DNA of 32,064 bases from Ilumatobacteraceae bacterium (GTDB taxonomy: Bacteria; Actinomycetota; Acidimicrobiia; Acidimicrobiales; Ilumatobacteraceae). Position 1 is the first letter of the stretch; each line of letters begins with the position of its first letter. Position numbers and translations under genes: made by a program. Location of the stretch: contig JAFMNE010000005.1 of assembly GCA_017859395.1 (NCBI GenBank), positions 12,302-44,365 of the forward strand, read 5' to 3'. Shown here one piece after another: positions 11,233-31,855 of the stretch. Under the pieces are notes generated by a model. The model saw nothing but the letters and a program-made list of their open reading frames with translations. It was not told where the DNA came from and ran no database searches.

Positions 11233-11238
11233 TACTGT
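11233..11238 (+). promoter_or_regulatory. -10 hexamer of a leaderless promoter (11245 gene)
   Basis: TACTGT is followed by exactly 6 nt and then the ATG at 11245, so transcription should begin at or next to the start codon. No Shine-Dalgarno and no clear -35 are visible. The same layout recurs at other genes in the window. Confidence 0.6.
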
Positions 11239-11244
11239 GCCCAT

Positions 11245-11892
11245 ATGAGCGCTGATGCGATCCGTGACACCGCCACCTTGCGCACGATGTTCCGCGAGCC
11301 GTCGGGGCGGGCCATCACCAAAGAGATCGACCACATCGATGACCTTGCAGCCGGCTTCATTGCCGCCGCCCCACTATTCGTGTTGGCCACCGCTGCTCAT
11401 GACCGTGTGGATGCATCACCGCGCGGTGGCGACCCGGGATTCGTGAAGGTGATCTCCCCCACCCGCCTGGCATTCGGCGACCTTGCCGGCAATAACCGCA
11501 TCGACTCCTACCGAAATCTGGTGGACGCACCGGCGGTGGCGATGCTGTTCATGGTGCCCGGCAGTATCGAAACCCTTCGCGTGAACGGCCAAGCCGCGGT
11601 GACGACGGACGCGCACATTCGCGAACTGTGCACCATCGACGACCGCATACCGAACATCGCCATCACCGTCGATGTCGACACGTGCTTCATGCACTGCGGC
11701 AAGGCACTACGGCGCAGCGCCACGTGGGAACCCGACACATGGCCGGCCGCAGGCTCCTACCCGAGTGGAGCCGAACTGTTGCATGGCCACACCAACTCAA
11801 CGACCCCCGTGTGCGACATAGCCGAGGGCCTCAACGCCGGATACCAGGCAACGATGTGGGAACCAGGCGGTGTCGACACATCGCCGTCGTGA
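11245..11892 (+). CDS. Pyridoxamine 5'-phosphate oxidase-fold flavoprotein (MSMEG_1061-like)
   Basis: The 215-residue protein contains the split-barrel signature of the PPOX-type FMN proteins: an acidic N-terminal helix, FIAAAPLFVLAT (strand, about residues 38-49), DASPRGGDPGFVKV, LAFGDLAGNNRIDSYRNL (the flavin-phosphate loop) and VAMLFMVPGSIETLRVNG, ending with CFMHCGKALRRSATW and the AEGLNAGY tail. These blocks match the MSMEG_1061 type of FMN-dependent proteins. A redox role on a small organic substrate or F420/FMN is likely; the substrate is unknown. The ATG at 11245 is fixed by a -10 hexamer 6 nt upstream (leaderless). The gene is monocistronic and followed by about 280 nt with no gene. 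Confidence 0.85.
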   Translation: MSADAIRDTATLRTMFREPSGRAITKEIDHIDDLAAGFIAAAPLFVLATAAHDRVDASPRGGDPGFVKVISPTRLAFGDLAGNNRIDSYRNLVDAPAVAMLFMVPGSIETLRVNGQAAVTTDAHIRELCTIDDRIPNIAITVDVDTCFMHCGKALRRSATWEPDTWPAAGSYPSGAELLHGHTNSTTPVCDIAEGLNAGYQATMWEPGGVDTSPS

Positions 11893-12175
11893 ACGACTGC
11901 TCGGGGATCACACAACGTCACCGAGATGACCGGTTGCACGGCGCAGTGACAGCCCGGTCCCGAGTCCATGATGCGAGTTGCAACAGCGATGTACGTCGAT
12001 AGCGGATGTCGATCCGGCGCCAACGTTCGCGAGGCCAGGACGAATAACTCCCGCACAGACGACAACAACCGGCGTGCTACACGATGAGATCATGGTGCCG
12101 CTCGGTCGATGGCAGCGCGTGATCTACGCATCGGCATGGTGCACGGCGACACAACCGTGATGAGTTGGGAGAGCA
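11893..12175 (+). other. Gene-free stretch between the flavoprotein gene and the cutA leader
   Basis: No ORF with convincing codon use, no strong hairpin and no RNA gene was seen here. It presumably holds the 3' end of the flavoprotein mRNA and the promoter of the cutA unit, but no -35/-10 pair stands out. Confidence 0.4.
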
Positions 12176-12220
12176 ATGAACAGTGAGAAGGATGAATCGG
12201 GAGAGGCGAAGCCAACATGA
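12176..12220 (+). CDS. 14-residue leader ORF overlapping cutA
   Basis: A minimal ORF (MNSEKDESGEAKPT) starts 7 nt after GGGAG and stops so that its TGA overlaps the cutA ATG (ATGA). The same GGGAGAG string occurs again 10 nt before cutA, inside this ORF. The peptide itself is charged and unremarkable; coupling or attenuation of cutA translation is the likely role, if any. It is out of frame with cutA. Confidence 0.35.
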   Translation: MNSEKDESGEAKPT

Positions 12221-12675
12221 GTGATGACACCCATAACAACGATGCATCCGACGAGACCGCCGACGATGATCTGCCTGATGACGTCACCGACCTGTTGACA
12301 GCAATCGCCGACATGGCCGGGATGGACGCCGACGACAGTTCGGAACTGAGCCACGTCGAGGTGCAGATCACCTGTGGCAGCGATGACGAAGCGCACCGCA
12401 TCGCCAGCACGTTGGTCGATGAACGTCTCGCCGCCTGTGTGCAACGTCTGCCAATTCATTCCGTCTACAACTGGGACGGGGAAGTACAGAACGAACCGGA
12501 GATCCTGTTGCTGGCCAAGACCACCAGCGACCGCATCGGCGACCTCGTCGACATGGTGGTGGATCTGCACTCCTACGACGTACCCGCAATCACCGCCGTG
12601 CCGATCGTGGCCGGCACCACTGACTACCTCGACTGGGTGACGGACATGACCCGACCAGTCATTCCGGACGACTGA
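12217..12675 (+). CDS. cutA: CutA1-like divalent ion tolerance protein
   Basis: The 152-residue protein has an acidic, Asp-rich extension of about 45 residues and then a complete CutA1 fold: VEVQITCGSDDEAHRIASTLVDERLAACVQRLPIHSVYNWDGEV, the EILLLAKTTSDRI segment and the C-terminal HSYDVPAITAVPI...YLDWV block, all hallmark CutA motifs (ACV and W-x-G-E-V included). CutA1 forms trimers and has been linked to copper tolerance; its real role is unclear. The extension is longer than usual for the roughly 105-residue family. The ATG at 12217 has GGGAGAGG about 10 nt upstream and overlaps a 14-codon leader ORF. A weak hairpin-forming GC-rich segment follows the stop. Confidence 0.9.
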   Translation: MSDDTHNNDASDETADDDLPDDVTDLLTAIADMAGMDADDSSELSHVEVQITCGSDDEAHRIASTLVDERLAACVQRLPIHSVYNWDGEVQNEPEILLLAKTTSDRIGDLVDMVVDLHSYDVPAITAVPIVAGTTDYLDWVTDMTRPVIPDD

Positions 12676-12759
12676 CTCCGGCGCCGCACCCCGGGCTGGG
12701 CGGCATCGCGTCACCGAGCAGGTGACTGTCGCGTATTCGGTCCACAGGTGCGCAGCGGT

Positions 12760-12765
12760 TATGGT
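12760..12765 (+). promoter_or_regulatory. Possible -10 for the cNMP-binding protein gene
   Basis: TATGGT lies about 37 nt before the ATG at 12802, with a weak TTCGGT 18 nt further upstream. Unlike several neighbours this gene keeps a 5' leader with a Shine-Dalgarno (AAGGGGGA). Confidence 0.35.
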
Positions 12766-12801
12766 CTGCGATCGGGGACACATTCACAAGGGGGAATTTC
12801 A

Positions 12802-13221
12802 ATGGCCCACAGCTATCACGCACATCTCACTCAGGTTCCACTGTTCAGCGACCTTGACTCTGACGACCTCGACGTCGTTGCCAAGGCAACAACCGAGCTC
12901 GATCTGAAGGCCGGATACACACTGATCCGTGAGGGCGAGACCGCTCATGAGATGTTCGTCGTGGCCTCTGGCACCCTTGAAGTGAGCCGTGGCGGAGAGC
13001 ACGTGGCCGATATCGGTCCTGGTGGCTTCGCCGGTGAAATGGCGCTGCTCACCCATGCTCGCCGCGACGCCACCGTGACGGCGAAGACCGACGTCACCGT
13101 GTTGCACATCGACGGCCGTTCATTCGGTGGGGTCCTCGAAGAAGCTCCGATGATCGCCGTGAAGATGCTGCCGATCGTCGCGTCGCGTGTGATCGACAAC
13201 AGCACCGAACACACGCACTGA
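12802..13221 (+). CDS. Stand-alone cyclic nucleotide-binding domain protein
   Basis: The 139-residue protein is little more than one CRP-type cNMP-binding domain: VPLFSDLDSDDLDVVAKATTELDLKAGYTLIREGETAHEMFVVASGTLEVSRGG, then the phosphate-binding cassette GFAGEMALLTHARRDATV with its conserved Glu and Arg, so ligand binding looks intact. No DNA-binding helix-turn-helix follows, so it cannot act as a classic CRP regulator. It may sense cAMP or another nucleotide for a partner protein. The ATG at 12802 has a purine-rich AAGGGGGA 7 nt upstream, which excludes the longer reading starting at 12748. It is convergent with the MFS gene. Confidence 0.86.
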   Translation: MAHSYHAHLTQVPLFSDLDSDDLDVVAKATTELDLKAGYTLIREGETAHEMFVVASGTLEVSRGGEHVADIGPGGFAGEMALLTHARRDATVTAKTDVTVLHIDGRSFGGVLEEAPMIAVKMLPIVASRVIDNSTEHTH

Positions 13222-13303
13222 ACGCTGCGGGTCAGCCCTCGCGCGTATCGTGCTCGCGGTTCATGCGACTGGTCTCGCCGAAGGTGTTCAGTGGCGAAAG
13301 CGA

Positions 13304-14422
13304 TCAGTGGCGGAAGCGTCGGTCGATCGCTACGAACGATCCGGCGACAGCGATCGCAAGTGCCAACACCATCCACGGCACCACGGACGCCCCAGCCGCG
13401 TCGAACACCGCACCCGTGGCGAACGGGAACACCGCACCGCCCACACCTGCCGATGCGATGAATAACGACGTGTCTGATCCGGTGAAATGCACCCGACGCT
13501 CGAGATAGGCAAACATCACCGGGAACTGCGGTGCGAGAGCAAGACCCAGCAGCATCGTGCCCGGCCACACCGCCCACGCAGCACCGTCGCCGATCACGAG
13601 CAGCACCGCAGCAACAACGGCAAGTCCGATCGATGACACCATGACCGTGCGCGGTCGCACACGTCCAACCACCACAGCCGACAGCAGACGCCCACCGGTG
13701 AACAACACCCAGAACATGGTGACCAGAACCGTTGGCGCCGCACCCGCGAGGCCGGTCGCCTCGCCATAGGTGAACACCCACCCGGCAAACGTCACCTCGT
13801 ATCCCACATACAACAAGAAGAACACCGACGCCACGATGAGCACGGCGCGTGTGGCATCGCCTTGCTCATCACGTGCTAACTCGGCCCGACGTGGCGATGG
13901 CACCATCACAGCCCACACCGCCAGGACAATCGCCACCAGCGATGTCCCCAGCGAGACCACTGCAAGCCCGGCAGCCACGATCGCCGGACCGGCGAGTGCA
14001 CCGATGCCGAACGAGAAGTGCATCAGATTCATCGAACGCCCAACGTCGGCACCCTTATGCCACATCAGCAAGGTGTTGTCGACCACATCAATGGCCGCCG
14101 CGGCGCCGCCGAGCAACGCGAATACCGCGAGCGCAGGAAGCAACGAACCGAGATGGGGCATCACCAACATGCCGGCCGCGATCGCGAGCAAGCACCCAGC
14201 GTGTACGAGGTGCCCCGGCATTCGATCGACGAGACGACCTGCCAGCAACGACGCAAGGATGCTGCCGATCGCCATCGCAGCGAAGAGCGACCCGGCCGCG
14301 CTCACCGAGGTACCCGTCCGCTCTCGGATCTCGCCCAATGCCGGCCCGAGGAAGGTCAATGTCACGCCGATCACCACGAAACTCGCGAGATACACGGGCA
14401 CCGGTCGACGCACGGCCGACAC
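13304..14422 (-). CDS. MFS transporter, FHS/MFSD4-like
   Basis: The 372-residue polytopic protein has about 11-12 hydrophobic helices. GRLVDRMPGH after the second helix is the MFS motif A region, and AAIDVVDNTLLMWH followed by MNLMHFSFGIGALAGP resembles the fucose/glucose (FHS, MFSD4) branch, where the aligned segment carries an Asn and a His in the substrate path. The substrate is unknown; a sugar or organic acid is the family guess. The central cytoplasmic loop (about residues 180-193) is short and charged. The start is uncertain between GTG 14422 and GTG 14413: the latter has a TAGCGT hexamer 7 nt upstream, in line with leaderless genes nearby. It is divergent from the molybdenum hydroxylase gene across a repeat-rich spacer. 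Confidence 0.87.
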   Translation of the reverse strand: MSAVRRPVPVYLASFVVIGVTLTFLGPALGEIRERTGTSVSAAGSLFAAMAIGSILASLLAGRLVDRMPGHLVHAGCLLAIAAGMLVMPHLGSLLPALAVFALLGGAAAAIDVVDNTLLMWHKGADVGRSMNLMHFSFGIGALAGPAIVAAGLAVVSLGTSLVAIVLAVWAVMVPSPRRAELARDEQGDATRAVLIVASVFFLLYVGYEVTFAGWVFTYGEATGLAGAAPTVLVTMFWVLFTGGRLLSAVVVGRVRPRTVMVSSIGLAVVAAVLLVIGDGAAWAVWPGTMLLGLALAPQFPVMFAYLERRVHFTGSDTSLFIASAGVGGAVFPFATGAVFDAAGASVVPWMVLALAIAVAGSFVAIDRRFRH

Positions 14423-14426
14423 GCTA
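14421..14426 (-). promoter_or_regulatory. Possible -10 hexamer of the MFS gene
   Basis: On the minus strand TAGCGT is followed by 7 nt and GTG 14413. It overlaps the alternative start at GTG 14422, so if real it argues for the shorter protein. Confidence 0.4.
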
Positions 14427-14554
14427 CGGCGCGCAATGACAATGAGCGTCGGCAGTGCACGACGAGATGACCACGTGGCGATCAGTTGGCGACGTCGGTT
14501 CTCGGCATGTCATGCCGTTCTCACCGCGACATCCACCACCGTCGCGGCACGACG

Positions 14555-14660
14555 ACGCACGACCACCACGCACGACCACCACGCACAACCACAACGTCAC
14601 AACGCACGACCACCACGCGACGCCACTCAACACCACCGCACACAACCACAACGACACGCC
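14555..14660. repeat. 13-bp tandem repeats in the divergent MFS/hydroxylase spacer
   Basis: Three adjacent 13-bp units of the form acgcacgaccacc occupy 14555-14593, a fourth perfect unit lies at 14602-14614, and degenerate copies continue to about 14660. The plus strand is almost free of G-runs and rich in ACC/CAC. The array fills most of the 297-nt divergent spacer (14423-14719), upstream of both genes. Confidence 0.7.
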
Positions 14661-14707
14661 ACGGTGCGGAACACAGCGCCAACACCACAACGGCGTTATC
14701 GCATCAC

Positions 14708-14713
14708 TACGGT
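14708..14713 (+). promoter_or_regulatory. -10 hexamer of a leaderless promoter (14720 gene)
   Basis: TACGGT is followed by exactly 6 nt and the ATG at 14720. There is no Shine-Dalgarno. This start is also where family homology to molybdenum hydroxylases begins, so the long in-frame reading to the left is not coding. Confidence 0.6.
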
Positions 14714-14719
14714 CGCACC

Positions 14720-17212: not shown

Positions 17213-17415
17213 CCCACGGCACACGCACTGGGTGGTTGACACCGGTGTAACTGCGGTGGTGGCGGCGGCCTGTGCCGTATCCGCCCGTCGATGTCGTCTG
17301 CTCCGTAATCTGCCCGCCGGACATCATCGGTCATCGTGGAACAACTCCGCGGCAGTGGTGGTCGTCTGGCAGCGGTCTCACTCATCAGCGATGACGAGCC
17401 GCCGTTGAACCGAAA

Positions 17416-17440
17416 CCTGTTGGACACCACGCTCAACAGG
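17416..17440. promoter_or_regulatory. Perfect 7-bp dyad upstream of the DoxX-like gene
   Basis: CCTGTTG and CAACAGG are separated by 11 nt, ending 22 nt before the GTG at 17463. It could be a regulator operator or an mRNA hairpin in the 5' leader. The rest of the 250-nt spacer (17213-17462) shows no gene. Confidence 0.4.
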
Positions 17441-17462
17441 CGTCACCCCCTAAGGAGTCACA

Positions 17463-17870: not shown

Positions 17871-18014
17871 TCGCTCGATCAGCATCCCACTCACTGCGCT
17901 TCGGCTGCTGAACCCTCGCGGAACACGGCGGGAATACATGCGCACTTCGTTCGGTTGTGATCGATCGACAAGGCTGCGTGCGTCGTCCCCCACGAGCACA
18001 CAGGTCACAGAACG

Positions 18015-18067: not shown

Positions 18068-18159
18068 TCGACCACTCCGCGTCACGATGCAACGCGCGGT
18101 GACGTGCGATATATCACGGCGTCATCAGCCCCACATCGGCTGGTGCCGGCCACATCAGC

Positions 18160-18165
18160 CATGAT
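18160..18165 (+). promoter_or_regulatory. Weak -10 match 6 nt before GTG 18172
   Basis: CATGAT matches the second and last positions of TANNNT and has the same 6-nt spacing as the better leaderless promoters in this window. It supports GTG 18172 as the start. Confidence 0.35.
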
Positions 18166-20727: not shown

Positions 20728-21729
20728 TCACACAGCGAACTGGGCGGCGACCCGCACCGGGCCACCATCAACGGTGTGCACGCGGCCGTCATCCACAAGT
20801 TCGATGAGGTGACCCATCACCGAGCGTGCTGCCGGACGGTGCAATTTGGGATGCACTGCCGTATACAGCACCCGCACGATCTCGGGCACGGTGTGGGGCC
20901 CGGATGCGCGCAACAGATCAACGATTTGGGCCGTGCGAGCCAGGCGATGATCGACGAGGGCCTGCACATAGGTTGGGGCATCATCACGACATGGGCCATG
21001 GGTGGGCCACAGCAATGCGTCATCGCGAGCAGCCACCTTGCGCAGCGAATCGATATACGACCGCATATCCCCATCGGGTGGTGACACGACCGTGGTCGAC
21101 CACCCCATCACATGGTCACCGGTGAACAAGGTCCGTTCCTCTTCGAAGGAGAAACAACAGTGGTTCGAGGTGTGCCCCGGTGTGGTGACCGCGCGCATCG
21201 TGAGGCCGGGCCCCTCAAGGGCCACCTCACCGTCGGACACCGCCACATCAGGAGCGAAGCCGGTGTCGACGGATTCCTCCATCTTCACTTCCGGCTCGGC
21301 ATCGTCACCTGACGATGCCGCATCGTCGGATGACTCGGCGGGTTCATCGGGCACCGACAATTCCTCTTCGCCGTCGAACATTCCCTCAGGCTCGTCCACC
21401 ACGAGATGTGGCCCGACCGCGAACGTCGGTGCACCGGTCTCGGCCGCCAACCATGCCGCGAGCGGCGAATGGTCACTATGACAATGCGTGATCAAAATGC
21501 CCCGCACCGTTTCCCCGGCGAGAGCAGCCGCGAGAGCATCCCGATGTGAATCGATGACCGGACCCGGGTCGATCACCACCACATCACCACGGCCCACGAT
21601 GTAGGTGCCGGTGCCGGTGTAGGTGAACTTCGATGGGTTCTTCGCAATCACCCGGCGCACACCGGGGCTCACATCATCGACGCGTCCGTAGACAACATCA
21701 TCGAGGGTACGGAACTCGGGGCCACTCAC
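20728..21729 (-). CDS. Metallo-beta-lactamase-fold hydrolase (LACTB2-like)
   Basis: The 333-residue protein has a binuclear zinc site motif HCHSDH (82-87) and TPGHTSNH (183-190), LFTGDHVMGW, and a C-terminal winged-helix-like domain (about 250-325), the layout of LACTB2-type endoribonucleases and related thioester or lactone hydrolases. A 48-residue acidic, Ser/Asp/Glu-rich insertion (about 111-158) lies between the first and later metal motifs and looks disordered. The function is hydrolytic; the substrate is unknown. GTG 21729 overlaps the asparaginase stop (GTGA), so it is the last gene of a three-gene coupled operon. It converges with kynU with a 35-nt gap that carries a small TGTGTG/CACACA dyad overlapping the stop. 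Confidence 0.9.
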   Translation of the reverse strand: MSGPEFRTLDDVVYGRVDDVSPGVRRVIAKNPSKFTYTGTGTYIVGRGDVVVIDPGPVIDSHRDALAAALAGETVRGILITHCHSDHSPLAAWLAAETGAPTFAVGPHLVVDEPEGMFDGEEELSVPDEPAESSDDAASSGDDAEPEVKMEESVDTGFAPDVAVSDGEVALEGPGLTMRAVTTPGHTSNHCCFSFEEERTLFTGDHVMGWSTTVVSPPDGDMRSYIDSLRKVAARDDALLWPTHGPCRDDAPTYVQALVDHRLARTAQIVDLLRASGPHTVPEIVRVLYTAVHPKLHRPAARSVMGHLIELVDDGRVHTVDGGPVRVAAQFAV

Positions 21730-22700
21730 ACGAGCGACCGTACCCGACCGACCGGCGCGCCAGCCCCTCGGGCCGGTGGCGCGAGATCAGAGTCGAGGTC
21801 GGTCGGCACCGCAACACCAGCACGGCGCAACAACGACGCCGCGACCGGCGCTCCGGCGCGTACGGCCCCATCGGCCACCTTCACCACCACCGTGGCCACA
21901 CCGGGCAGCGACGCGATGAATACCCCTTCGGCGCCGTCCTTGGCGATCAGGCCGGGCACCGCGGTCATCAACATGGTGGCCGGCCGGGTGGGTCCCGCCA
22001 CCAACACCGGGTGTGACGTCATCGCAGTACGCACCTCGTCGACATCACGGGCAACGGTGTGCAACGCCCGCGCTAAACCCACCAGTGCCATCGCATGAGT
22101 CGGCGCACCACACCCGTCGACACCAACATGGCGCACGCCACCGTCGGCGGCACACAACTCATCGATCACCGCGGTGATGTGTTGCTGCAGCGGATGGGTG
22201 GGCGTGAGGTGCCCGTCGACATCCCAGCCTTCGGCCACACAGGTGGCGATGAACGCGGCGTGTTTACCTGAGCAGTTCATCGCCAGTGCGCTCGGACCGC
22301 CGCCATCGAGCAATACCCGGTCGGCCTCAACGCGGTCATAGGGCAGATCGGGGGTGGTGGCGAGTACTCGTTCATCGAGTCCTGCAGCAGCCAACGTCGA
22401 CCGCACCACATCGAGATGTACGGGCGATCCGTCGTGGCTGGCACAGGCCAGCGCCCATTGACGCACCTCAAGGCGTACCGAGGTGCGTGCCATTGCCGCG
22501 GCCTGCAGTGGCTTCAGACACGACCGGCCGAACACGACCTGGGTGTGGTCACCAACCGCGCGCAGCACCTCACCCGAGGCACCCAGCACCACCGCACATC
22601 CGTGATGCACCGACTCGTCGAGGCCGTTGCGATCGACGACGGCGATGGGGACGTGACCCTCAGGAGTCACTGCCGACCGCTGCGCCAGCGCATGAGCCAA
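21726..22700 (-). CDS. L-asparaginase II-family protein
   Basis: The 324-residue protein of the Rhizobium-type asparaginase II family (distinct from the E. coli AnsA/AnsB fold) carries ESVHHGCAVVL, CLKPLQAAAM, ACASHDGSPVHLD, the NCSGKHAAFIATC block and GVDGCGAPTHA. These include the Ser-Lys and Cys residues that form its active site. It would hydrolyse asparagine to aspartate and ammonia in the cytoplasm. Start: ATG 22700 overlaps the preceding gene by 34 nt; an in-frame GTG at 22670 would give the 4-nt GTGA overlap common in this window and still keep all motifs. Coupled downstream to the metallo-hydrolase gene. Confidence 0.93.
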   Translation of the reverse strand: MAHALAQRSAVTPEGHVPIAVVDRNGLDESVHHGCAVVLGASGEVLRAVGDHTQVVFGRSCLKPLQAAAMARTSVRLEVRQWALACASHDGSPVHLDVVRSTLAAAGLDERVLATTPDLPYDRVEADRVLLDGGGPSALAMNCSGKHAAFIATCVAEGWDVDGHLTPTHPLQQHITAVIDELCAADGGVRHVGVDGCGAPTHAMALVGLARALHTVARDVDEVRTAMTSHPVLVAGPTRPATMLMTAVPGLIAKDGAEGVFIASLPGVATVVVKVADGAVRAGAPVAASLLRRAGVAVPTDLDSDLAPPARGAGAPVGRVRSLV

Positions 22701-23884
22701 CCCTGACGCGGACCCACATCGTCGGTGGCGGCTTCCAGCATCGTTAGTTCGGAATCGATCACGTCATGACGACGGCCCCATTCGCTGGCCAGCGCCTGGA
22801 ACATCGCCGAGAACGGCAGGGCCAAAATGGCACCGGCCGGCCCCAGCAGAGCCAGTCCGGCCAGCGCCGCGCCGAATGCCACCGCCGGGTGCAGATCCAT
22901 CGTGCGTGCGGTGATGCGCGGCGAGATCAAGTAGTTCTCCAACTGCTGATACACGATGATGATGCCGAGGATGACCGCCGCGCGTACCGGTGAATCCAAG
23001 AAGGTGATCAGCACCGGCAGCACAGCGGCGATGTAGGTGCCGATCACCGGCAAGAACTGCGAGACCAAACCAACCCACAGCGCCAGCGCCACGGGCGAGC
23101 GCACATCGGCGGAAGTGAACACAATGCCGTGGAAGACCGCCGACACCGTCGACAGCAGGAGCCGCGAATACAGGTAGCCGCCGGTTTTTGAAATTGCCAA
23201 TTCCCACGCCCCGAGCACGGCGACCTGCGCTTCAGGTCGCAGACGCGAGCAGATCACCCGCCGCAGTCGCGGCCCGTCAGCAACCAGGTAATAGGCGAAG
23301 AGCAGAATCGAGAACGCCGCCACCAATCCCTGCAAGGCCTGGCCCGACAAACGAATCGCTTCGCCCTGCTGAGAATCGATGAACTGCTGCACTGCACCGT
23401 TCGGATCGTTGAACTCGGCCACGACCTGCTCGGCGTCGATTGACGTGCCGAACAAGTTGTTGATCCGATCGACCGTGTCGGAGATGTAGCGGTCTGAGTT
23501 CGACAACAGATCGGCGATCTGCGTGCCGATCATCGTTCCCATCACCCCGAGGAACAACCCCACCGCGGCCATCACCGCGAGCAGCACCGACAATGTGGCG
23601 CGGCCACGACGCCACCCACGACGCGCCAGCCGGTTCACCGCTGGTTCCACAGCCAGCGCAATGAACAACGCAATCACCAGCCACATCACCAGGCCCGAGA
23701 TGCGCAGCCATGCATCGGCGACCACACCGGTGAGCAGATAACCCAGCCAGAACAAGATGATCGCGCCCACGATCCACCTCGGCGGTGTCGACCGAGAATT
23801 CACCGCTGCAGCGTCCTTTCCCGCAGCACTATCAGGGCGAGAGCCGTCGACCGGTGGGTCGCCTGGGGCCGGATGTTCGGGCAC
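22667..23884 (-). CDS. AI-2E family transporter (PerM-like)
   Basis: The 405-residue membrane protein has a Pro/Asp-rich cytosolic N-terminus (1-35), a pair of helices at about 37-80, a helix near 98-122, a long soluble segment (about 123-185), and a C-terminal bundle with GLVSQFLPVIGTYIAAVLPVLITF and YQQLENYLISPRITARTMDLHP, the signature of the family. Members export or flux varied small molecules, sometimes as Na+/H+ antiporters; autoinducer export is not implied here. GTG 23884 has a TACGAT hexamer 7 nt upstream (leaderless). It is the first gene of an operon with the asparaginase-like protein and the metallo-hydrolase, which may point to amino-acid or amide turnover, though that is inference. 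Confidence 0.92.
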   Translation of the reverse strand: MPEHPAPGDPPVDGSRPDSAAGKDAAAVNSRSTPPRWIVGAIILFWLGYLLTGVVADAWLRISGLVMWLVIALFIALAVEPAVNRLARRGWRRGRATLSVLLAVMAAVGLFLGVMGTMIGTQIADLLSNSDRYISDTVDRINNLFGTSIDAEQVVAEFNDPNGAVQQFIDSQQGEAIRLSGQALQGLVAAFSILLFAYYLVADGPRLRRVICSRLRPEAQVAVLGAWELAISKTGGYLYSRLLLSTVSAVFHGIVFTSADVRSPVALALWVGLVSQFLPVIGTYIAAVLPVLITFLDSPVRAAVILGIIIVYQQLENYLISPRITARTMDLHPAVAFGAALAGLALLGPAGAILALPFSAMFQALASEWGRRHDVIDSELTMLEAATDDVGPRQGWLMRWRSGRQ

Positions 23885-23891
23885 AAGCGTG

Positions 23892-23897
23892 ATCGTA
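23892..23897 (-). promoter_or_regulatory. -10 hexamer of the AI-2E operon promoter
   Basis: TACGAT on the minus strand lies 7 nt before GTG 23884. Only 39 bp separate this start codon from the divergent ATG at 23924, so the two promoters must overlap. Confidence 0.55.
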
Positions 23898-23911: not shown

Positions 23912-23917
23912 GACGAT
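23912..23917 (+). promoter_or_regulatory. -10-like hexamer of the MpaB-like gene
   Basis: GACGAT is followed by exactly 6 nt and ATG 23924. It matches TANNNT except at the first base. There is no Shine-Dalgarno before the ATG. Confidence 0.42.
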
Positions 23918-23923: not shown

Positions 23924-24835
23924 ATGGCGACATCCACCGGCAGCGGCAACGACGACGCCTCATCAGACGACAGCGCCGTCGAACCAGCCGAGACCGTGCG
24001 TGCTTGGTTGGCCGACCGGATCCGCGACCGGGTGATTGGCCCCGATGCCACCGAACGCACCGACGCGCTCTTCGACGCACCCGGGCCACGCAGATTCGAT
24101 GAGAGCGCGCCGATCCGACGGGTGCACGCCGACGCCGCAATGTTCATCGGCGGACTTCGCGCGCTACTGCTCCAGTCGCTGCACCCGCTGGCCATGGCTG
24201 GTGTCGCCGACCACAGCGACTACCGCAACGACCCGTGGGGTCGCCTGCAACGCACCGCTGATTTCTTAGCCACCACCAGTTTCGGCACCGTGGAGATGGG
24301 TGATGCATCGATTGCCGCCGTGCGCCGAATCCACGACCGTGTCACCGGCACCGCGCCCGATGGACGCGCCTACGCGGCAAACGACCCGCACTTGCTCGCA
24401 TGGGTGCATGTTGCCGAGGTCGACAGTTTCCTCAGCGCCTACGACCGCTATGGCGCCGAGCCACTCGCCGGCGACGACCGCGATACGTACATTGCGCAGT
24501 CGGGTGAGATCGCCCGAGCACTCGGCGCCGATCCGGTACCCACCACCGAGTCCGAGGTGGCTGAGGTGTTGCGCTCGTATCGACCCGAACTGCGATCCAC
24601 GCCCGCAGCGCGCGAGGCCGCGCGTTACTTGCTCCTCCAGCCACCACTACCGCTGTCATCGCGGCCGGCCTACGGGTTGTTGGCCGCCGCGGCATCATCG
24701 CTGCTGCCATTGTGGGCCCGACGCCAATTGTTGATTCCATTTTTGCCGCTCACGGAGAACATCGCCGTGCGACCCGCTGGTGCGTTCATTACCGGCACCA
24801 TCAGGTGGGCTTTGGCGCCCGAGCAGCGGCTCTGA
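23924..24835 (+). CDS. MpaB/DUF2236-family oxygenase-like protein
   Basis: The 303-residue protein has the DUF2236 (latex-clearing protein/MpaB) motifs: MFIGGLRALLLQSLHPLAMAGVADHS (73-98, with His87 and His97 as candidate haem ligands), YRNDPWGRLQRTADFL, then DPHLLAWVHVAEVDSFLSAY (154-173). Lcp-type members are b-type haem dioxygenases; MpaB members are oxidases or isomerases in fungal meroterpenoid synthesis, so a haem- or metal-dependent oxidation is a fair family-level guess. The first 25 residues are Ser/Asp/Thr-rich. The C-terminal 70 residues are hydrophobic. Its 3' end overlaps the convergent glycosylase gene by 35 nt. Confidence 0.88.
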   Translation: MATSTGSGNDDASSDDSAVEPAETVRAWLADRIRDRVIGPDATERTDALFDAPGPRRFDESAPIRRVHADAAMFIGGLRALLLQSLHPLAMAGVADHSDYRNDPWGRLQRTADFLATTSFGTVEMGDASIAAVRRIHDRVTGTAPDGRAYAANDPHLLAWVHVAEVDSFLSAYDRYGAEPLAGDDRDTYIAQSGEIARALGADPVPTTESEVAEVLRSYRPELRSTPAAREAARYLLLQPPLPLSSRPAYGLLAAAASSLLPLWARRQLLIPFLPLTENIAVRPAGAFITGTIRWALAPEQRL

Positions 24836-26084: not shown

Positions 26085-26091
26085 GACCGCG

Positions 26092-26097
26092 AGTATC
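26092..26097 (-). promoter_or_regulatory. Weak -10 match before GTG 26084
   Basis: GATACT on the minus strand lies 7 nt before GTG 26084 and matches two of the three fixed positions of TANNNT. Together with homology it favours this start over ATG 26129. Confidence 0.35.
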
Positions 26098-26136
26098 GCG
26101 CACCCGTCGTCGGTGCGCAGGATCGCCATGCCCGAT

Positions 26137-26320
26137 GCAGCGCACCAAGTTGAGCAGAGCGCCAACGTGGGCAACAGGCCAACCCAGGGAGCGCCCAACC
26201 TGGCGACGCAAAACCGGCAACAGGCCAACCCAGGGAGCGCCCAACCTGGCGACGCGGAACCGGCAGCACACCAGAGTGGGCAGCGCACCAACGTGGCGAT
26301 GCAGAACTGGCAGCGCACTT
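26137..26320. repeat. 46-bp tandem repeat (minisatellite) in a 409-nt gap
   Basis: Two almost identical 46-bp units (26170-26215 and 26216-26261, two differences) are flanked by diverged copies: 26262-26308 (47 bp), a partial at 26309-26320, and a truncated one at 26137-26169. Each main unit holds a short inverted repeat (CCAGG and CCTGG, 10-nt loop). The period is not a multiple of three, so the array is not protein-coding even though all minus frames stay open. It sits between two minus-strand genes; the remainder of the gap (26321-26493) shows no gene or clear terminator. Confidence 0.85.
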
Positions 26321-26493
26321 GGCCACGTGGACCCACGACGTGCGGCACTCGGCACTCAGTCGATCAATGCACTCCAGCGGAGCGCATCATCTCGGCGCGA
26401 CAACCACCGTGTGTCGGACGCCGGTGTGCTGTCGCGCAACGCAGCGCCGTGCGTGCACCACCAACGATGCATGCACGCGAGGCGACCGGTGGA

Positions 26494-27066
26494 TCAGTCA
26501 GCTTCGGTGATGGTGACCGATTCGATGACCACCGGTGTGGTCGGTCGGTCGCCGGCGCCGGTCGGCACGTTCTGCATCCGGTCGACGAGTTCGACGCCCT
26601 TCACCGTCTGGCCGAAGAGGCTGTAGGCGGGGGGAAGACGCACACCGTCGGGGCCGGAGATCAAGAAGAACTGGCTGCCATTGGTGTTCGGCCCGGCGTT
26701 GGCCATGGCCAACGACCCGATGTCGTATTGGCCGGGCTGGGGCAGTTCGTCCTCGAAGCGGTAGCCGGGGCCGCCACGGCCGTCACCGCCGGGATCGCCG
26801 CCCTGGCACACGAAGTTCTTGATGATGCGGTGGAAGATGATGCCGTCGTAGTAGTGGTTCAGCGCGAGGAACACGAAGTTGTTGACCGTCTTCGGTGCAC
26901 GCGCAGCATCGAGAGCAATGACGAGATCACCGATGACCTCACCGCCGATCGACACGGTCATCGTGGCCGAGTAGCGCTTGGCCGGGTCGATGCCCATCTC
27001 TGGGGGTTCGGAGAACTGGGTGCTGCGGGGGGCGGATCCGTCAAATGGGGGGAAAGTACTGGCCAT
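26494..27066 (-). CDS. Cyclophilin-type peptidyl-prolyl isomerase
   Basis: The 190-residue cytosolic cyclophilin (no signal peptide) catalyses cis-trans isomerisation of prolyl bonds. Family blocks are APKTVNNFVFLALNHYYDGIIFHRIIKNFVCQGGDP (with the FHR motif), GTG-like GGPGYRFEDEL, GSLAMANAGPNTNGSQFFL and YSLFGQTVKGVELVD. The catalytic Arg (FHRII), Phe and Gln (NGSQFF) residues are present, so it should be active. A 30-residue Pro/Ser-rich N-terminus precedes the domain. ATG 27066 is fixed by a TAGGGT hexamer exactly 6 nt upstream (leaderless). It is divergent from radA. Confidence 0.94.
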   Translation of the reverse strand: MASTFPPFDGSAPRSTQFSEPPEMGIDPAKRYSATMTVSIGGEVIGDLVIALDAARAPKTVNNFVFLALNHYYDGIIFHRIIKNFVCQGGDPGGDGRGGPGYRFEDELPQPGQYDIGSLAMANAGPNTNGSQFFLISGPDGVRLPPAYSLFGQTVKGVELVDRMQNVPTGAGDRPTTPVVIESVTITEAD

Positions 27067-27072
27067 GCGGCG

Positions 27073-27078
27073 ACCCTA
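27073..27078 (-). promoter_or_regulatory. -10 hexamer of a leaderless promoter (cyclophilin)
   Basis: TAGGGT on the minus strand is followed by exactly 6 nt and ATG 27066. There is no Shine-Dalgarno between them. Confidence 0.6.
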
Positions 27079-27232
27079 GCGGTGCGGTGTTGCGGTCGGC
27101 ACCCGCTACTCATCACAACAGGCACACCCGACCGGCAGTCGGTTCGCATCTGTCGGGGTGGCGGATCAGCAGACCACAGACATGGCCGGTTCAGGAACAG
27201 GCCACGAGACCGCGGTTGTCACATCGCACTGC

Positions 27233-27238
27233 CACACT
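27233..27238 (+). promoter_or_regulatory. Weak -10 match before radA GTG 27245
   Basis: CACACT, matching TANNNT at two of three fixed positions, is followed by 6 nt and GTG 27245. It supports the homology-based short start of RadA. Confidence 0.3.
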
Positions 27239-27244
27239 GTGCTC

Positions 27245-28648
27245 GTGGCATCTGCGCGCACCTCACACGTCTGCAGCGACTGTGGCACCCATCATCCGAA
27301 ATGGCTTGGCCAATGCTCGGGATGCGGTGCCTACGGCACGCTCACCGAGGAGGTGCTGTCGAGCGGTTTGCCGACTGAGGCACACCCCGGCTCCCCACGA
27401 CCCGTCAGCAGCGATGCGCGGCCGCCCGTCGCCATCGCCGATGTGGTCACCGCCGCCGAGGCCGCGTGTGCCACCGGCATCGCCGAGTTCGACCGCACAC
27501 TGAGCGGCGGTCTGGTCCCTGGTTCGGTCACGCTGCTCGGTGGCGAACCAGGCATCGGCAAGAGCACTCTCGCTCTGCAGATCGCCGGCACGTGGCCGGG
27601 AACCGTGCTGTACGTGAGCGCGGAGGAAAGCGCCCAACAAGTGCGACGACGGGCCGAACGCTTGGGGGTGGTGCGCGACGGTCTGTTCCTTCTCGCCGAA
27701 ACCGGTCTCGGCGACATCGACGCCGCCGTCAGCCAGATCGGCCCGAGCCTCATGGTGATCGACTCGGTGCAAACCGTGGCTGACCCCGCCGTATCGTCCG
27801 CTCCGGGTTCGGTCAGCCAGGTGCGTGCCGTGGCCCAGCACCTCACGCATATCGCCAAGCGACACGATCTGCCCACGGTGCTCATCGGTCATGTCACCAA
27901 AGACGGCGACCTCGCCGGTCCGCGCGCCCTCGAACATCTCGTCGACACGGTTCTCACCTTCGAGGGCGACCGGCATCACGCCCTGCGCATGGTGCGCGCC
28001 GTGAAACATCGCTACGGCTCCACCAACGAGTTGAGTCTGTTCGAGATGACCGGCGACGGTCTGCGTGGGGTGGCCGACCCCAGCGCGTTGTTCCTGGCCG
28101 ATCGTCGCCCCGGCACCCCGGGGTCGGCGGTTGTCCCCACCCTTGAGGGCCGCCGCCCGCTGGTGTTGGAGGTGCAGGCCTTAACCACCGCGGCACCCGA
28201 CAACGTGCCGGCACGACGCACCACCCAGCACATCGATCACAACCGCCTCTCGCTGCTGCTCGCGGTGATGGAGCGCCATGCGGGTCTGCCGGTGCGCCGT
28301 CACGACGTGTACGCCTCCACCGTCGGCGGGGTGCGCGTATCCGAGCCGGGAATGGACCTCGCCGTCTGCGTGGCCGTGGCCAGCGCGCTCGCCGATCGGC
28401 CGCTGTCGACCGACATTGCTGTGGTTGGCGAGGTCGGCCTCGGTGGCGAGATCCGCCAGGTGGGACACACCGAGCGTCGCTTCGCCGAAGCAGCTCGATT
28501 GGGGTTCACCGCGGTCATCGCTCCCGAACGATCGCCCGAGCCGCCGGCCGGGTTGACGGTGTGGCGCGCAGGCGACATTCGCGAGGCGCTTCGTTTGGCC
28601 GGCGTGTCAGTGCCATCTGGTAACAGTCATACCGATGATTCGTTCTGA
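27245..28648 (+). CDS. radA: DNA repair protein RadA (Sms)
   Basis: The 467-residue RecA-like ATPase promotes branch migration during recombinational repair. Domains in order: a four-Cys zinc finger (Cys10, 13, 24, 27 around THHPKWLGQC), a RecA core with Walker A GGEPGIGKST (99-108) and Walker B LMVIDSVQ, the RadA-specific KNRFG motif present as KHRYG (254-258), and a C-terminal Lon-like domain (about 310-440). The GTG start at 27245 puts the zinc finger nine residues from the N-terminus, as in other RadA proteins; a longer in-frame reading from 27158 adds 29 residues with no family match. disA follows 138 nt downstream, the usual actinobacterial radA-disA neighbourhood. Confidence 0.96.
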   Translation: MASARTSHVCSDCGTHHPKWLGQCSGCGAYGTLTEEVLSSGLPTEAHPGSPRPVSSDARPPVAIADVVTAAEAACATGIAEFDRTLSGGLVPGSVTLLGGEPGIGKSTLALQIAGTWPGTVLYVSAEESAQQVRRRAERLGVVRDGLFLLAETGLGDIDAAVSQIGPSLMVIDSVQTVADPAVSSAPGSVSQVRAVAQHLTHIAKRHDLPTVLIGHVTKDGDLAGPRALEHLVDTVLTFEGDRHHALRMVRAVKHRYGSTNELSLFEMTGDGLRGVADPSALFLADRRPGTPGSAVVPTLEGRRPLVLEVQALTTAAPDNVPARRTTQHIDHNRLSLLLAVMERHAGLPVRRHDVYASTVGGVRVSEPGMDLAVCVAVASALADRPLSTDIAVVGEVGLGGEIRQVGHTERRFAEAARLGFTAVIAPERSPEPPAGLTVWRAGDIREALRLAGVSVPSGNSHTDDSF

Positions 28649-28774
28649 CGGCGGTTCCCACGCTCCCATAACGACACCGGGTCGCGGGGTATCGCGGATG
28701 TAGGGCGCAGAAGTTGTGGGGCCGCAACGTGTGTGTCGGCGATGTCCGCAGAACGTCCCGCGCGCCACCTCCCC

Positions 28775-28780
28775 TACAAT
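28775..28780 (+). promoter_or_regulatory. -10 hexamer of a leaderless promoter (disA)
   Basis: TACAAT, the closest match to consensus in the window, is followed by exactly 6 nt and ATG 28787. It gives disA its own promoter independent of radA read-through. No good -35 is visible. Confidence 0.68.
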
Positions 28781-28786
28781 CACCAC

Positions 28787-29860
28787 ATGTCACGCCCCAC
28801 CACCCTCAGCGAGGCTCTTCGCCGCGCCCTCGGTCGTGTGGCACCTGGAACACCGCTGCGGGACGGCATCGATCGTGTGGTTCGTTCGAAAGCCGGCGCA
28901 CTGCTGGTTCTCGGAGACGACCCTGAAGTGCTGGCCATCTGCACCGGTGGGTTCTTGGTCGACGCCCCCTACTCGCCACAGCGACTGTCGGAGTTGGCGA
29001 AGATGGACGGCGCCATCATCATTTCAAGTGACGGCACCCGGATCGCGCGCGCCAATGTCCACCTGGTCCCCGACCCGAGCGTGCCCACGAGCGAGACCGG
29101 CACTCGACACCGCACCGCCGAACGGGTGGCTCGCTCGATCGGCGTGCCCGTCATCAGCGCCTCTGAGGAGATGGGTGTGATCAACGTCTACGCCGGTGGC
29201 CAAAAGCACCAGCTACAAGACACCAGCCGCCTACTCGACCGATCGAATCAGGCATTGCAGACCTTGGAGCGCTACACCGAACGCGTCAACAATTCTCTCG
29301 GTGGCCTCACCGCATCAGAGGTGGAAGACGTGGTCACCCTCCGCGATGTCGCCATCGTGATGCAACGCCACGAGATGGTGAATCGCATCGCCGAGGAGAT
29401 CGAGACGATGATCGTGGAGTTGGGTGTGGATGCCCGACTTCTGCGACTACAGCTCGACGAGCTCTACGCCGAAGTCGATGATCGCATCGACCTCGTCATC
29501 ACCGACTATCTCCCCGCGGCACGTGACACCGACGACACCATGACGGAACTTGCCACTCTGACCGACGATGAGCTGCGCGATCTCCGACGGGTTGCGGCCA
29601 CTCTTCATCACGGTGGCGACCCCGATGACCTCGATCTCGAGTTGGCCCCGAAAGGCACCCGCCTACTGCGGCGGGTGAACCGCCTCCCAGATGAGATTGC
29701 TGTGCGGGTTGCTGCACATTTCGGAGACCTTGCACGACTGCAGCGGGCCTCGGTGGCCGAACTATCGACGATCGATGGTGTGGACAGCGCCCTGGCCACT
29801 CAGATTCGCGACACCCTCACCAAAGTGACCGAATCGGCAATTCTCGATCAGTACCACTGA
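28787..29860 (+). CDS. disA: DNA integrity scanning protein DisA (diadenylate cyclase)
   Basis: The 357-residue protein makes c-di-AMP from two ATP and scans DNA for branched structures. The DAC domain (about 1-140) shows DGA (74-76) in KMDGAIIIS and RHR (107-109) in GTRHRTAERVA, both needed for catalysis. A helical spine (about 150-290) follows, and a C-terminal HhH domain (about 300-357, including LSTIDGVDSALATQIRD) for DNA binding. Full length and intact. Its place after radA fits the known RadA control of DisA activity. The start at ATG 28787 is set by the leaderless promoter and agrees with the family. Confidence 0.96.
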   Translation: MSRPTTLSEALRRALGRVAPGTPLRDGIDRVVRSKAGALLVLGDDPEVLAICTGGFLVDAPYSPQRLSELAKMDGAIIISSDGTRIARANVHLVPDPSVPTSETGTRHRTAERVARSIGVPVISASEEMGVINVYAGGQKHQLQDTSRLLDRSNQALQTLERYTERVNNSLGGLTASEVEDVVTLRDVAIVMQRHEMVNRIAEEIETMIVELGVDARLLRLQLDELYAEVDDRIDLVITDYLPAARDTDDTMTELATLTDDELRDLRRVAATLHHGGDPDDLDLELAPKGTRLLRRVNRLPDEIAVRVAAHFGDLARLQRASVAELSTIDGVDSALATQIRDTLTKVTESAILDQYH

Positions 29861-29968
29861 ACGTTGCAGGTGCGTGCCGCGCCAACAGCACGTGGATGCG
29901 ACATAGCCGCGATTCCCGCGATCACATGCCTCCCGACCTTGGCGCGACAGGGCAGCCGTCGCCATGGT

Positions 29969-29974
29969 TAGCCT
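29969..29974 (+). promoter_or_regulatory. -10 hexamer of a leaderless promoter (nadE)
   Basis: TAGCCT is followed by exactly 6 nt and GTG 29981, with no Shine-Dalgarno. Confidence 0.52.
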
Positions 29975-29980
29975 GAGCCG

Positions 29981-31855
29981 GTGCCCGACGCTGTGCCAGA
30001 CGCGCCAACGGCTGCCGCGCCCGATGCGCCATCGGGCCGCCCCGGCAGCCAGCTCCGAGTTGCGATTGCGCAACTGAACCCCACCGTCGGCGACCTCGAG
30101 GGCAACGTCGAACGACTGATGGCTGCGTACCGGCGCGCCGACCTCGCCGGAGCCGACGTCATGGCGGCCGGTGAACTCGCGATCAGCGGCTACCCACCTG
30201 AGGACCTTCTGTTGAAGCCACGCTTCGTGGACGACAACCTCGCCGCCCTCGACCGTTTCGCTGCAGCCACCGGCGAGACCGTTGCCATCATCGGTGTTGC
30301 CACCCGCGTGCGCAACGATCCCACCCGGCTGCACAACTCTGCCGCGGTCTGCGCCCACGGCCGTGTCGTCGGTGTGTTCCACAAGCGGCTGCTGCCGAAT
30401 TACGAGGTGTTCGACGAGAAGCGTTACTTCACGCCAGGCAGTGGCACCATGCCCATGTTCAGCATCGCCGGCGTGCCGGTGGCGGTAGTGGTCTGCGAAG
30501 ACGCGTGGCACGACGACGGCCCGCACGCGGCGATGGTGGCCGCTGGCGCTCGTGCGGTGATCGTGGTGAATGGCTCGCCGTATCACCTTGACAAGGACGC
30601 CGAGCGTGAGTCGCTGTTCGCGCGGCGCGCGAACGAACTCGGTGTGCCCTTCGTCTACGCCAACCAGGTCGGTGGCCAGGACGAGCTGGTCTTCGACGGT
30701 GGGTCATTCACGGTCGATGCCACCGGCGAGGTAATCGCCCGATCACCACTGTTCACAGAGGACCTCGCCATCGTGGAGGTGCCCGTTCCGTCTGATGCCA
30801 CAGCACCTGATGATGTGCAGACCGCCGCAGCAACGTCGAGCGACACCGATGAGCTCACCGCCATGGTGGACCATGTGATCGAAGATGTGATCGACGGCGT
30901 GCTCGACCCCACCATTGATGCCTCCCGCGAGGATGTGGCGATGATCGACGTGACCGCGACGCGGCGCAGCCCCGCAGGAGCACCCGGTGGCGACATCGCA
31001 CCAGAGGTGTCGGGAGATGCCGAGCTGTATGACGCGCTCGTGGCGGCCACCCGCGACTACTGCCACAAGAACGGATTCCGTGATGTGGTGATTGGCCTGT
31101 CGGGGGGCATCGACTCCACGATCGTGGCGTGTATTGCCGTCGATGCCCTGGGCGCTGACCACGTGCATGGTGTTGCGATGCCATCGCGCTACTCGTCGGA
31201 TCACTCGATCAGCGATGCTGAGGCCCTCGCCGACAACCTCGGCATCGAGTGCCGCACCATCGCCATCGAGCCCGCGGTGAGCGCCTTCGAAGAGATGCTG
31301 GCCACATCGTTTGTGGGCCGAGATGTCGGTTTGGCATGGGAGAACATGCAGTCGCGGTGTCGCGGCCAGATCCTGATGGCCCTGTCGAATGAGATGGGTT
31401 GGATGGTGCTCACCACCGGCAACAAGAGCGAGGTCGCGGTCGGCTATTTCACGATCTACGGCGATGCGGTCGGCGGGTATGGCCCGATCAAGGATGTGCT
31501 GAAGACTCGGGTGTACGACCTGTGCCGTTTCGTCAACGATCGCGCTGGTCGAGAGGTCGTGCCGAACAACGTGCTGGTGAAACCCCCATCGGCTGAGTTG
31601 CGTCCCGATCAGCGCGACGACCAAAGCCTGCCGGCCTACGAGGTGCTCGACCCGATTCTTGCGGCCTACGTGGAACAGGACCGTACCGCTGCCGAGATCA
31701 TTGCCGACGGTCATGACGCCGAGATGGTGCAGCGCGTCACTCGGCTGGTGGACATCGCGGAGTACAAACGACGTCAGACACCACTCGGTGTGCGGGTAAC
31801 TCGGAAGGCGTTTGGGCGCGATCGGCGTCTGCCCGTCACCAACCGCTACAGCTGA
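29981..31855 (+). CDS. nadE: Glutamine-dependent NAD+ synthetase
   Basis: The 624-residue two-domain enzyme converts nicotinate adenine dinucleotide to NAD+ using ATP and glutamine. The N-terminal nitrilase-type glutaminase (about 25-270) has its Glu65-Lys135-Cys172 triad in GELAISGYPPEDLL, FHKRLLPNY and VVVCEDAW. The C-terminal synthetase carries the PP-loop SGGIDS (374-379), TTGNKSEVAVGY and KPPSAELRPDQRDDQSLPAYE. Between the two lies an Asp/Thr/Ala-rich linker (about 272-345), longer than I would expect. An Ala/Pro-rich stretch of about 22 residues precedes the domain; the GTG is fixed by a leaderless -10. A hairpin follows the stop. Confidence 0.96.
   Translation: MPDAVPDAPTAAAPDAPSGRPGSQLRVAIAQLNPTVGDLEGNVERLMAAYRRADLAGADVMAAGELAISGYPPEDLLLKPRFVDDNLAALDRFAAATGETVAIIGVATRVRNDPTRLHNSAAVCAHGRVVGVFHKRLLPNYEVFDEKRYFTPGSGTMPMFSIAGVPVAVVVCEDAWHDDGPHAAMVAAGARAVIVVNGSPYHLDKDAERESLFARRANELGVPFVYANQVGGQDELVFDGGSFTVDATGEVIARSPLFTEDLAIVEVPVPSDATAPDDVQTAAATSSDTDELTAMVDHVIEDVIDGVLDPTIDASREDVAMIDVTATRRSPAGAPGGDIAPEVSGDAELYDALVAATRDYCHKNGFRDVVIGLSGGIDSTIVACIAVDALGADHVHGVAMPSRYSSDHSISDAEALADNLGIECRTIAIEPAVSAFEEMLATSFVGRDVGLAWENMQSRCRGQILMALSNEMGWMVLTTGNKSEVAVGYFTIYGDAVGGYGPIKDVLKTRVYDLCRFVNDRAGREVVPNNVLVKPPSAELRPDQRDDQSLPAYEVLDPILAAYVEQDRTAAEIIADGHDAEMVQRVTRLVDIAEYKRRQTPLGVRVTRKAFGRDRRLPVTNRYS

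Follow-up and report, generated by a model that had tools for sequence, protein, structure and literature searches.

In this study of a 32,064-nucleotide stretch of DNA from an Ilumatobacteraceae bacterium of the class Acidimicrobiia (hereafter the window: positions 12,302 to 44,365 of contig JAFMNE010000005.1, assembly GCA_017859395.1), a hexamer of the form TANNNT was found a few nucleotides before start codons, both in the window and across the genome. These hexamers are very probably the -10 elements of promoters that lack a -35 element and place the transcription start site on the start codon itself, yielding leaderless mRNAs. This reading draws on features legible in the DNA, namely the box and its spacing, its gene context, the missing -35 element, a pyrimidine at -1 and purine at +1, the near-exclusion of Shine-Dalgarno (SD) motifs and conservation in relatives. 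The source genome comprises 2.25 Mb in 95 contigs and is 95% complete; the window has a GC content of 0.65 and, judged by RadA, its closest named relatives are metagenome-assembled genomes of Ilumatobacteraceae/Acidimicrobiia at 65–67% identity.

A spacing peak before start codons across the genome

A first-pass annotation of the window had proposed that TANNNT recurs exactly 6–7 nt before start codons, and that a genome-wide search should reveal an excess at that spacing. The search covered a first sample of 562,868 bases, whose 41 stretches together make up roughly one quarter of the genome, and a second sample of 400 kb, which was kept out of training and used for replication. Without any gene calls, the pattern TANNNT-Nk-ATG occurs in the first sample 53 times at k = 6, 24 times at k = 7 and 17 times at k = 8, against a background of 10.5 (standard deviation, s.d., 3.2; maximum 21) for k = 12–79, and the corresponding GTG pattern occurs 25 times at k = 6 and 29 times at k = 7 against 16.1 (s.d. 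4.5, maximum 24); no comparable spacing peak follows TANNNT in this sample for TTG, CTG, ATC, GTC or AGT. Replication in the second sample gave 32 and 35 occurrences at k = 6 and k = 7 for ATG (background 9.1, s.d. 2.6, maximum 17) and 32 and 41 for GTG (background 13.2, s.d. 3.8, maximum 23). The excess is thus large and replicated over the ~43% of the genome sampled; the whole-genome count for ATG agrees, at 207 occurrences for a spacing of 6 nt and 49 for one of 14 nt.

The signal is also visible at gene starts. When starts were chosen by coding potential alone, a box stood 5–8 nt upstream of 72 of 502 genes in the first sample, compared with 4 genes having a box at 20–23 nt and a mean of 5.7 (maximum 13) in 200 dinucleotide shuffles; in the second sample this was the case for 71 of 387 genes, against 4.8 (maximum 11, 100 shuffles). 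Admitting any in-frame candidate start within 90 nt of the coding-only start raised the first count to 118 of 501 genes, compared with 8.4 (s.d. 2.6, maximum 16) for decoy codons, and the second to 109 of 387, or 227 of 888 genes for both samples pooled; a share above 20% is therefore reached with any candidate start, the stricter coding-only starts giving 14–18%. A half-split position-weight model applied to coding-only starts returned an excess of 8–13% of 500 genes over thresholds 1–6, in agreement with the count of 72 of 502. One gene with ambiguous letters was left out of the candidate-start and model counts, as were genes too near the end of a stretch from the coding-only counts.

Within genes, 21 of 17,922 in-frame RTG (ATG or GTG) codons are preceded by a box. 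Selection against boxes before in-gene ATG or GTG was not found, the proportion being similar for other codons (340 of 225,264, p = 0.31); a smaller count of 7 of 10,765 in-gene RTG codons had seemed striking, and is explained by TANNNT being rare in coding DNA generally.

In practice the core of the box is TA[G/C][C/G][G/C]T, and its first T is degenerate, which corrects the TANNNT form. The claim of a spacer of exactly 6–7 nt proved too narrow. Among the 72 coding-only starts, the spacer is 6 nt in 45, 7 nt in 15, 8 nt in 10 and 5 nt in 2, and longer spacers are found at a further 8 (9 nt) and 4 (10 nt) starts, so that spacers run from 6 to 9 nt in the order 6 > 7 > 8 > 9.

Gene context, the -35 region and Shine-Dalgarno motifs

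The box marks the heads of transcription units, while tightly packed operon genes are more often SD-led. With coding-only starts in the first sample, boxes precede 32 of 134 divergent heads (SD in 13), 9 of 177 genes lying less than 20 nt from a codirectional neighbour (SD in 81), 16 of 71 with a codirectional gap of 20–59 nt (SD in 15) and 11 of 97 with a gap of at least 60 nt (SD in 21). With any candidate start, boxes are found at 57 of 133 divergent heads in the first sample and 49 of 112 in the second (106 of 245 together), compared with 13 of 177 and 17 of 135 genes at gaps below 20 nt. About a quarter of genes and more than 40% of divergent heads thus carry the signal before a candidate start. 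Box and SD occur together in only 3 of 502 genes of the first sample and 6 of 387 of the second.

The first-pass annotation had seen no evident -35 boxes and had suggested reliance on the -10 element and perhaps an initiator, and both points are supported. The best match to TTGACA averages 2.88 of 6 positions at box-led genes, no better than at shifted places (2.92) or at other genes (2.88). Since the purine at +1 is fixed by the choice of ATG or GTG, only the base at -1 counts as a test, and here C or T is found in the first sample at about 86% of the 72 box-led starts, compared with 49% of the 429 others, and in the second at 53 of 71 compared with 154 of 316. A pyrimidine at -1 followed by a purine at +1 is consistent with the pattern of a transcription start.

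The 16S rRNA of this genome retains the full anti-SD sequence CACCTCCTTTCT, so that leaderless and SD-led routes can coexist, and the class entry for the anti-SD in the tabulated part of PMC10783764, UCACCUCCUU, is consistent with it. SD independence of the Flavobacteriia type, for which passages of the same source describe a 16S 3' end missing CCUCC, was considered and is ruled out by the presence of CACCTCCTTTCT.

Sites in the window

The boxes of the window, including the weak ones in which the first T is replaced, are as follows.

11233–11238, + strand: -10 box TACTGT, 6 nt before ATG 11245 of a PNPOx-like protein (PF01243); no ortholog among the loci searched
14421–14426, - strand: -10 box TAGCGT, 7 nt before GTG 14413 of an MFS transporter (PF07690); no ortholog among the loci searched
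14708–14713, + strand: -10 box TACGGT, 6 nt before ATG 14720 of a molybdopterin-binding xanthine/aldehyde dehydrogenase-like protein
18160–18165, + strand: weak -10 box CATGAT, 6 nt before GTG 18172 of a CoA-transferase family III gene
21737–21742, - strand: -10 box TACGGT, 7 nt before GTG 21729 of a metallo-beta-lactamase-fold protein (PF00753); additional to the first-pass list
23892–23897, - strand: -10 box TACGAT, 7 nt before GTG 23884 of an AI-2E family permease (PF01594)
23912–23917, + strand: weak -10 box GACGAT, 6 nt before ATG 23924
26092–26097, - strand: weak first-pass site GATACT, 7 nt before GTG 26084; model score -0.6
27073–27078, - strand: -10 box TAGGGT, 6 nt before ATG 27066 of a cyclophilin-type prolyl isomerase
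27233–27238, + strand: weak -10 box CACACT, 6 nt before GTG 27245 of radA
28775–28780, + strand: -10 box TACAAT, 6 nt before ATG 28787 of disA (diadenylate cyclase)
29969–29974, + strand: -10 box TAGCCT, 6 nt before GTG 29981 of nadE (NAD synthetase)

All seven strong boxes of the first-pass annotation were recovered in the sequence with the spacers claimed, and its statement that these starts lack an SD holds, a 4-letter SD test flagging none of the seven. The SD-like tracts it had reported at 12217, 12802, 17463, 10876 (-) and 9508 (-) are likewise present, that of 12802 (AAGGGGG) being missed by the 4-letter test. On both strands of the whole window, TANNNT-N5-8-RTG occurs ten times. In eight cases the codon is an in-frame start of a called gene and lies no more than 120 nt from the start chosen by the caller, coinciding with it in four (14720, 21729 on the - strand, 27066 on the - strand and 29981); the other two are 21731 (-), which uses the box of 21729 out of frame, and 21698 (-), which is in-gene and opens a 9-aa frame. 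The gene at 21729 (-) overlaps its upstream neighbour by 4 nt, and an in-frame alternative GTG at 14422 overlaps the box of 14413 (-). The candidate promoters at 11245 and 14413 are proposed from sequence and statistics alone. Low-complexity CACGACCACCACGCAC-like repeats occupy 14530–14700, between two divergent genes and just upstream of the predicted 14720 promoter.

Conservation at orthologous loci

Several of the relatives compared are close to each other and the counts that follow are therefore not independent; loci whose alignment begins after residue 50 were left out (L032 for radA, L027 for 23924). TANNNT precedes the cyclophilin gene at 6–8 nt in 10 of 10 orthologs and an in-frame start of the permease gene at 7 nt in 9 of 9, and TACGGT stands at 6 nt in the two of six orthologs of the 14720 gene that have their upstream start codons shown. 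For nadE, 30 loci were obtained from a family search of 31 genomes, of which 29 were matched locally and one (L221) dropped: TANNNT is found at 5–8 nt in 24 of the 29, the window's own included, with four lacking it and one having an unaligned N-terminus. Of these 24 boxes, 16 share the core TAGCCT, even though in most the first ~20 residues of the protein fail to align; L219 and L220, both counted among the 24, show just 27% identity and are possibly not genuine orthologs. For disA, the box stands at 6 nt in 7 of 7 loci of the first set of relatives. Class-wide, disA was matched in 50 of 60 genomes, and among the matches listed (30 loci, L162–L191) TANNNT is present at 5–8 nt in 18, own locus included, one of which (L172) is doubtful as its box stands only before a TTG.

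Since NANNNT at 6–7 nt precedes as many as 7% of in-gene RTG codons (771 of 10,765), single weak sites mean little and conservation alone carries them. The four weak sites of the first-pass annotation are all present in the sequence, and three of them are conserved: GANNNT at 6 nt before 23924 in all 9 orthologs whose N-terminus could be aligned, CANNNT at 6 nt before 18172 in 7 of 7, and NANNNT at 6–7 nt before radA in 15 of 16 with an alignable N-terminus, including a full TANNNT in three (L035, L036 and L085). The fourth did not hold up, NANNNT being found at 6–7 nt in 1 of 10 orthologs of 26084, and GATACT is probably not a promoter of the -10-adjacent type. Imperfect repeats of ~25–45 nt (caacaggccaacccagggagcgcccaacctggcgacgc) lie upstream of 26084 (-), at 26140–26330.

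The permease gene at 23884 (-) and the gene at 23924 (+), which encodes an MpaB/Lcp-like oxygenase, form a divergent pair with start codons 39 nt apart and back-to-back -10 boxes, and both boxes are kept in the nine orthologs compared for each.

Breadth across the class and other groups

Across 119 Acidimicrobiia genomes, the ratio of TANNNT-N6-ATG to TANNNT-N14-ATG is at least 2 in 72 and between 1.2 and 2 in 11. Boxes were counted at gene starts in relatives drawn from a RadA search, whose 80 loci were divided into four outgroups (49 loci) and a group of relatives (10 loci), 21 being unused. The relatives (L022–L031) show a box in 28 of 137 genes against 2.7 in shuffles (maximum 8). In the outgroups no excess was seen for loci of Chloroflexota (GC-matched at 0.63; 1 of 81 against 2.5), Flavobacteriales (5 of 138 against 3.2), Balneolales (15 of 145 against 14.7) or Elusimicrobia (30 of 305 against 39.8). 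A genome of the same genus (G008) carries the box at 6 of 51 genes (shuffles 0.6, maximum 2), and the AT-rich genome G009 of family f16, which has a low ratio, at 26 of 84 (shuffles 11.7, maximum 19). For G058 the sample is too small to judge, with 2 of 34 and a shuffle maximum of 3.

Alternative explanations and contrary observations

That the boxes are chance hexamers, picked by eye in GC-rich DNA, is an explanation to which we assign next to no probability. Only seven sites had been named in the window, their starts had been chosen by a reader who had already seen the boxes, and the raw whole-window count of ten patterns does not exceed dinucleotide shuffles of the window (22.8, s.d. 4.5), presumably because codon structure disfavours TANNNT. 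Against this stand the peak at one spacing, which appears without gene calls and again at starts chosen without the upstream letters, its replication in the second sample and its conservation in relatives, by which chance is already refuted; the first-pass judgement that the arrangement is improbable by chance is thus borne out by location and spacing, and not by the raw count. Shifted spacings in the real window give 3–7 patterns, compared with the ten seen. Scarcely more credible is the proposal that part of the signal is the stop codon (TAA or TAG) of an upstream gene mistaken for a box. The third base is G in 64% of the 72 boxes, which makes TAG frequent, and some boxes precede genes that overlap their neighbour, e.g., 21729. 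The context counts nevertheless refute this for the bulk of the signal, which is strong at divergent heads (32 of 134), where no upstream stop on the same strand is expected, and at codirectional gaps of 20–59 nt (16 of 71), where the neighbour's stop lies further off.

It is also very unlikely, if somewhat less so, that the hexamer is a translation-initiation or other mRNA signal of leadered transcripts whose true promoter lies further upstream. The hexamer keeps its place with respect to the start codon, the very feature by which it was detected, and this would fit such a signal; it favours unit heads, however (57 of 133 divergent heads), is seldom seen before codirectional genes in tight packing (13 of 177) and nearly excludes the SD (both signals in 3 genes of 502 in the first sample and 6 of 387 in the second). 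The bases at -1 and +1 resemble a start site, and the hexamer matches the -10 element of leaderless promoters that have been mapped or tested in other bacteria, as described in parts of PMC3898074 and PMC12340547.

Several further observations weigh, like the raw window count, against the reading of the box as a leaderless promoter. A backward-pattern control in the same genome yields 177 occurrences against 207; it has no peak at that spacing (8–51 per spacing over 25 spacings) and was therefore treated as a different background, yet the contrast is still not clean. An expectation-maximization mixture model for class fractions was rejected as unusable, its SD class having become a catch-all (71%) and shuffled upstream DNA having produced a box class of 24–34%, and fixed counts with decoys and shuffles were therefore used. 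At codirectional gaps of at least 60 nt, where genes would often be expected to have their own promoter, the box is less frequent than at divergent heads, with 19 of 97 (first sample) and 14 of 71 (second) for any candidate start, and 8 of 71 for coding-only starts in the second sample. RbpA had no match to Pfam PF13397 in this genome (95% complete), which may reflect a gap in the genome or a divergent protein. The box is absent from 12 of the 30 disA loci listed, lineages switching between states, and in G008 none of 12 divergent heads carries a box (a small sample).

Finally, the ratio of the two spacings is below 1.2 in 36 of the 119 class genomes, 26 of which belong to one family (f13) of small, ~1-Mb genomes with a median ratio of 0.89. 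In G005, an AT-rich member of that family, boxes over 5–8 nt (16 of 95 genes) remain within shuffles (12.1, maximum 20). Its gene starts nevertheless show a spacer-6 peak, with 10 boxes there and 0–6 at each of the 39 other spacings. That the family has lost the architecture is not shown, as judged from this one genome of 26. In small AT-rich genomes such as G005 and G009 the peak is hidden in raw counts because the background is high; the profile at gene starts peaks at spacer 6 in both.

Divergent pairs sharing one TA

Some divergent pairs may start from a single shared promoter core, in which opposite -10 boxes overlap in a palindromic TA (ANNNTANNNT); this we regard as a tentative proposal, rather less than evenly likely to be correct. 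These are pairs of leaderless-type genes facing away from each other with 23–25 nt between their start codons, and three were located in the source genome.

L020, 3416–3444: shared-TA divergent pair
L020, 8728–8757: shared-TA divergent pair
L105, 15898–15928: shared-TA divergent pair

The pattern CAY-N5-8-ANNNTANNNT-N5-8-RTG matches three times in the first sample, where shifted spacers give 0.56 (maximum 2 in 16 controls); all three matches are flanked by called genes, in one case through an alternative start on the right. The second sample has seven matches at six places, against 0.63 (maximum 3), of which only two have called genes near both ends, giving one or two candidate pairs. Given one box-led side, CAY occurs at 6–7 nt 8 times against 2 expected (21 cores, both strands counted, so that a symmetric pair can count twice). 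The numbers are small and the evidence suggestive. Bidirectional promoters are known in E. coli (sections of PMC12825309); if shared cores exist here, each binding of the polymerase would commit it to one of the two directions, and a single dinucleotide would couple the two genes.

Proposed mechanism

By analogy with other bacteria, RNA polymerase carrying a sigma factor of the sigma-70 type, most likely the housekeeping one, would bind the -10-only promoter, the DNA would melt at TANNNT and transcription would start on the purine of ATG or GTG. The box-to-codon distance of 6–8 nt would place the start site on the first base of the codon, making the mRNA leaderless, and the transcript would then be translated from its 5'-terminal codon without an SD; the sigma step, the precise 5' end and leaderless translation are all taken here from what is seen in M. 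tuberculosis, where 5' ends were mapped (PMC3898074), and in Deinococcus, where boxes were tested (PMC12340547). The genome holds three matches to sigma-70 region 3, one of them partial, and two CarD-domain matches, one within a 1220-aa frame that is probably Mfd. RbpA was considered as the factor behind -35 independence and is not invoked, since no Pfam match was obtained.

Relation to known systems and significance

The pattern itself is not new, since Zheng et al. 2011 (PMC3160421) already describe this kind: passages of that paper place TANNNT ~12 bp ahead of the start codon in bacteria and put the share of such genes in Actinobacteria above 20%. The TA-led genes described there share with ours the high-GC actinobacterial setting, the low information of the three middle positions, a share above 20% and the use of shuffles as a test; here, gene context, the -1 base and ortholog conservation were tested in addition. 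Acidimicrobiia are not named in its main text (0 occurrences in the main text only). In Mycobacterium tuberculosis, 26% of genes with a primary start site (22% of expressed genes) are leaderless in the account of Cortes et al. 2013 (excerpts of PMC3898074), and the promoters resemble those proposed here in their TANNNT -10 element, lack of a conserved -35, purine start and C as the commonest base at -1. In contrast, 5' ends were mapped there and are deduced here, and the RbpA Pfam match was not found in our genome. In Deinococcus-Thermus, a -10 region adjacent to open reading frames is reported in portions of PMC12340547, for about one third of genes in D. radiodurans; it is similar in its TANNNT motif, its required spacing relative to the reading frame, the usual absence of a -35 and the leaderless mRNA, and differs in belonging to another phylum and in having been studied by box mutation and reporters. 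No earlier description of leaderless genes in Acidimicrobiia or Ilumatobacter was found in a search of full-text literature, which did not cover supplements. This is a known actinobacterial habit and not a new mechanism, and what is new is its documentation in Acidimicrobiia.

In genomes of this sort the box can serve as a guide for correcting start codons: the coding-only caller placed the starts of four window genes 108, 114, 45 and 9 nt from the box-marked candidates at 11245, 23884, 28787 and 14413, respectively. The class also offers apparent natural swaps between leaderless and SD-led initiation of the same gene. Of the 12 boxless disA loci, six have a purine-rich SD by eye (L171, L173, L174, L176, L178 and L184), in two more TANNNT stands 9 nt upstream, and in one the start lies too far inside to allow a verdict (also by eye); disA looks leaderless in some families and SD-led in others, which would make these swaps useful for asking why a gene keeps either mode of initiation.

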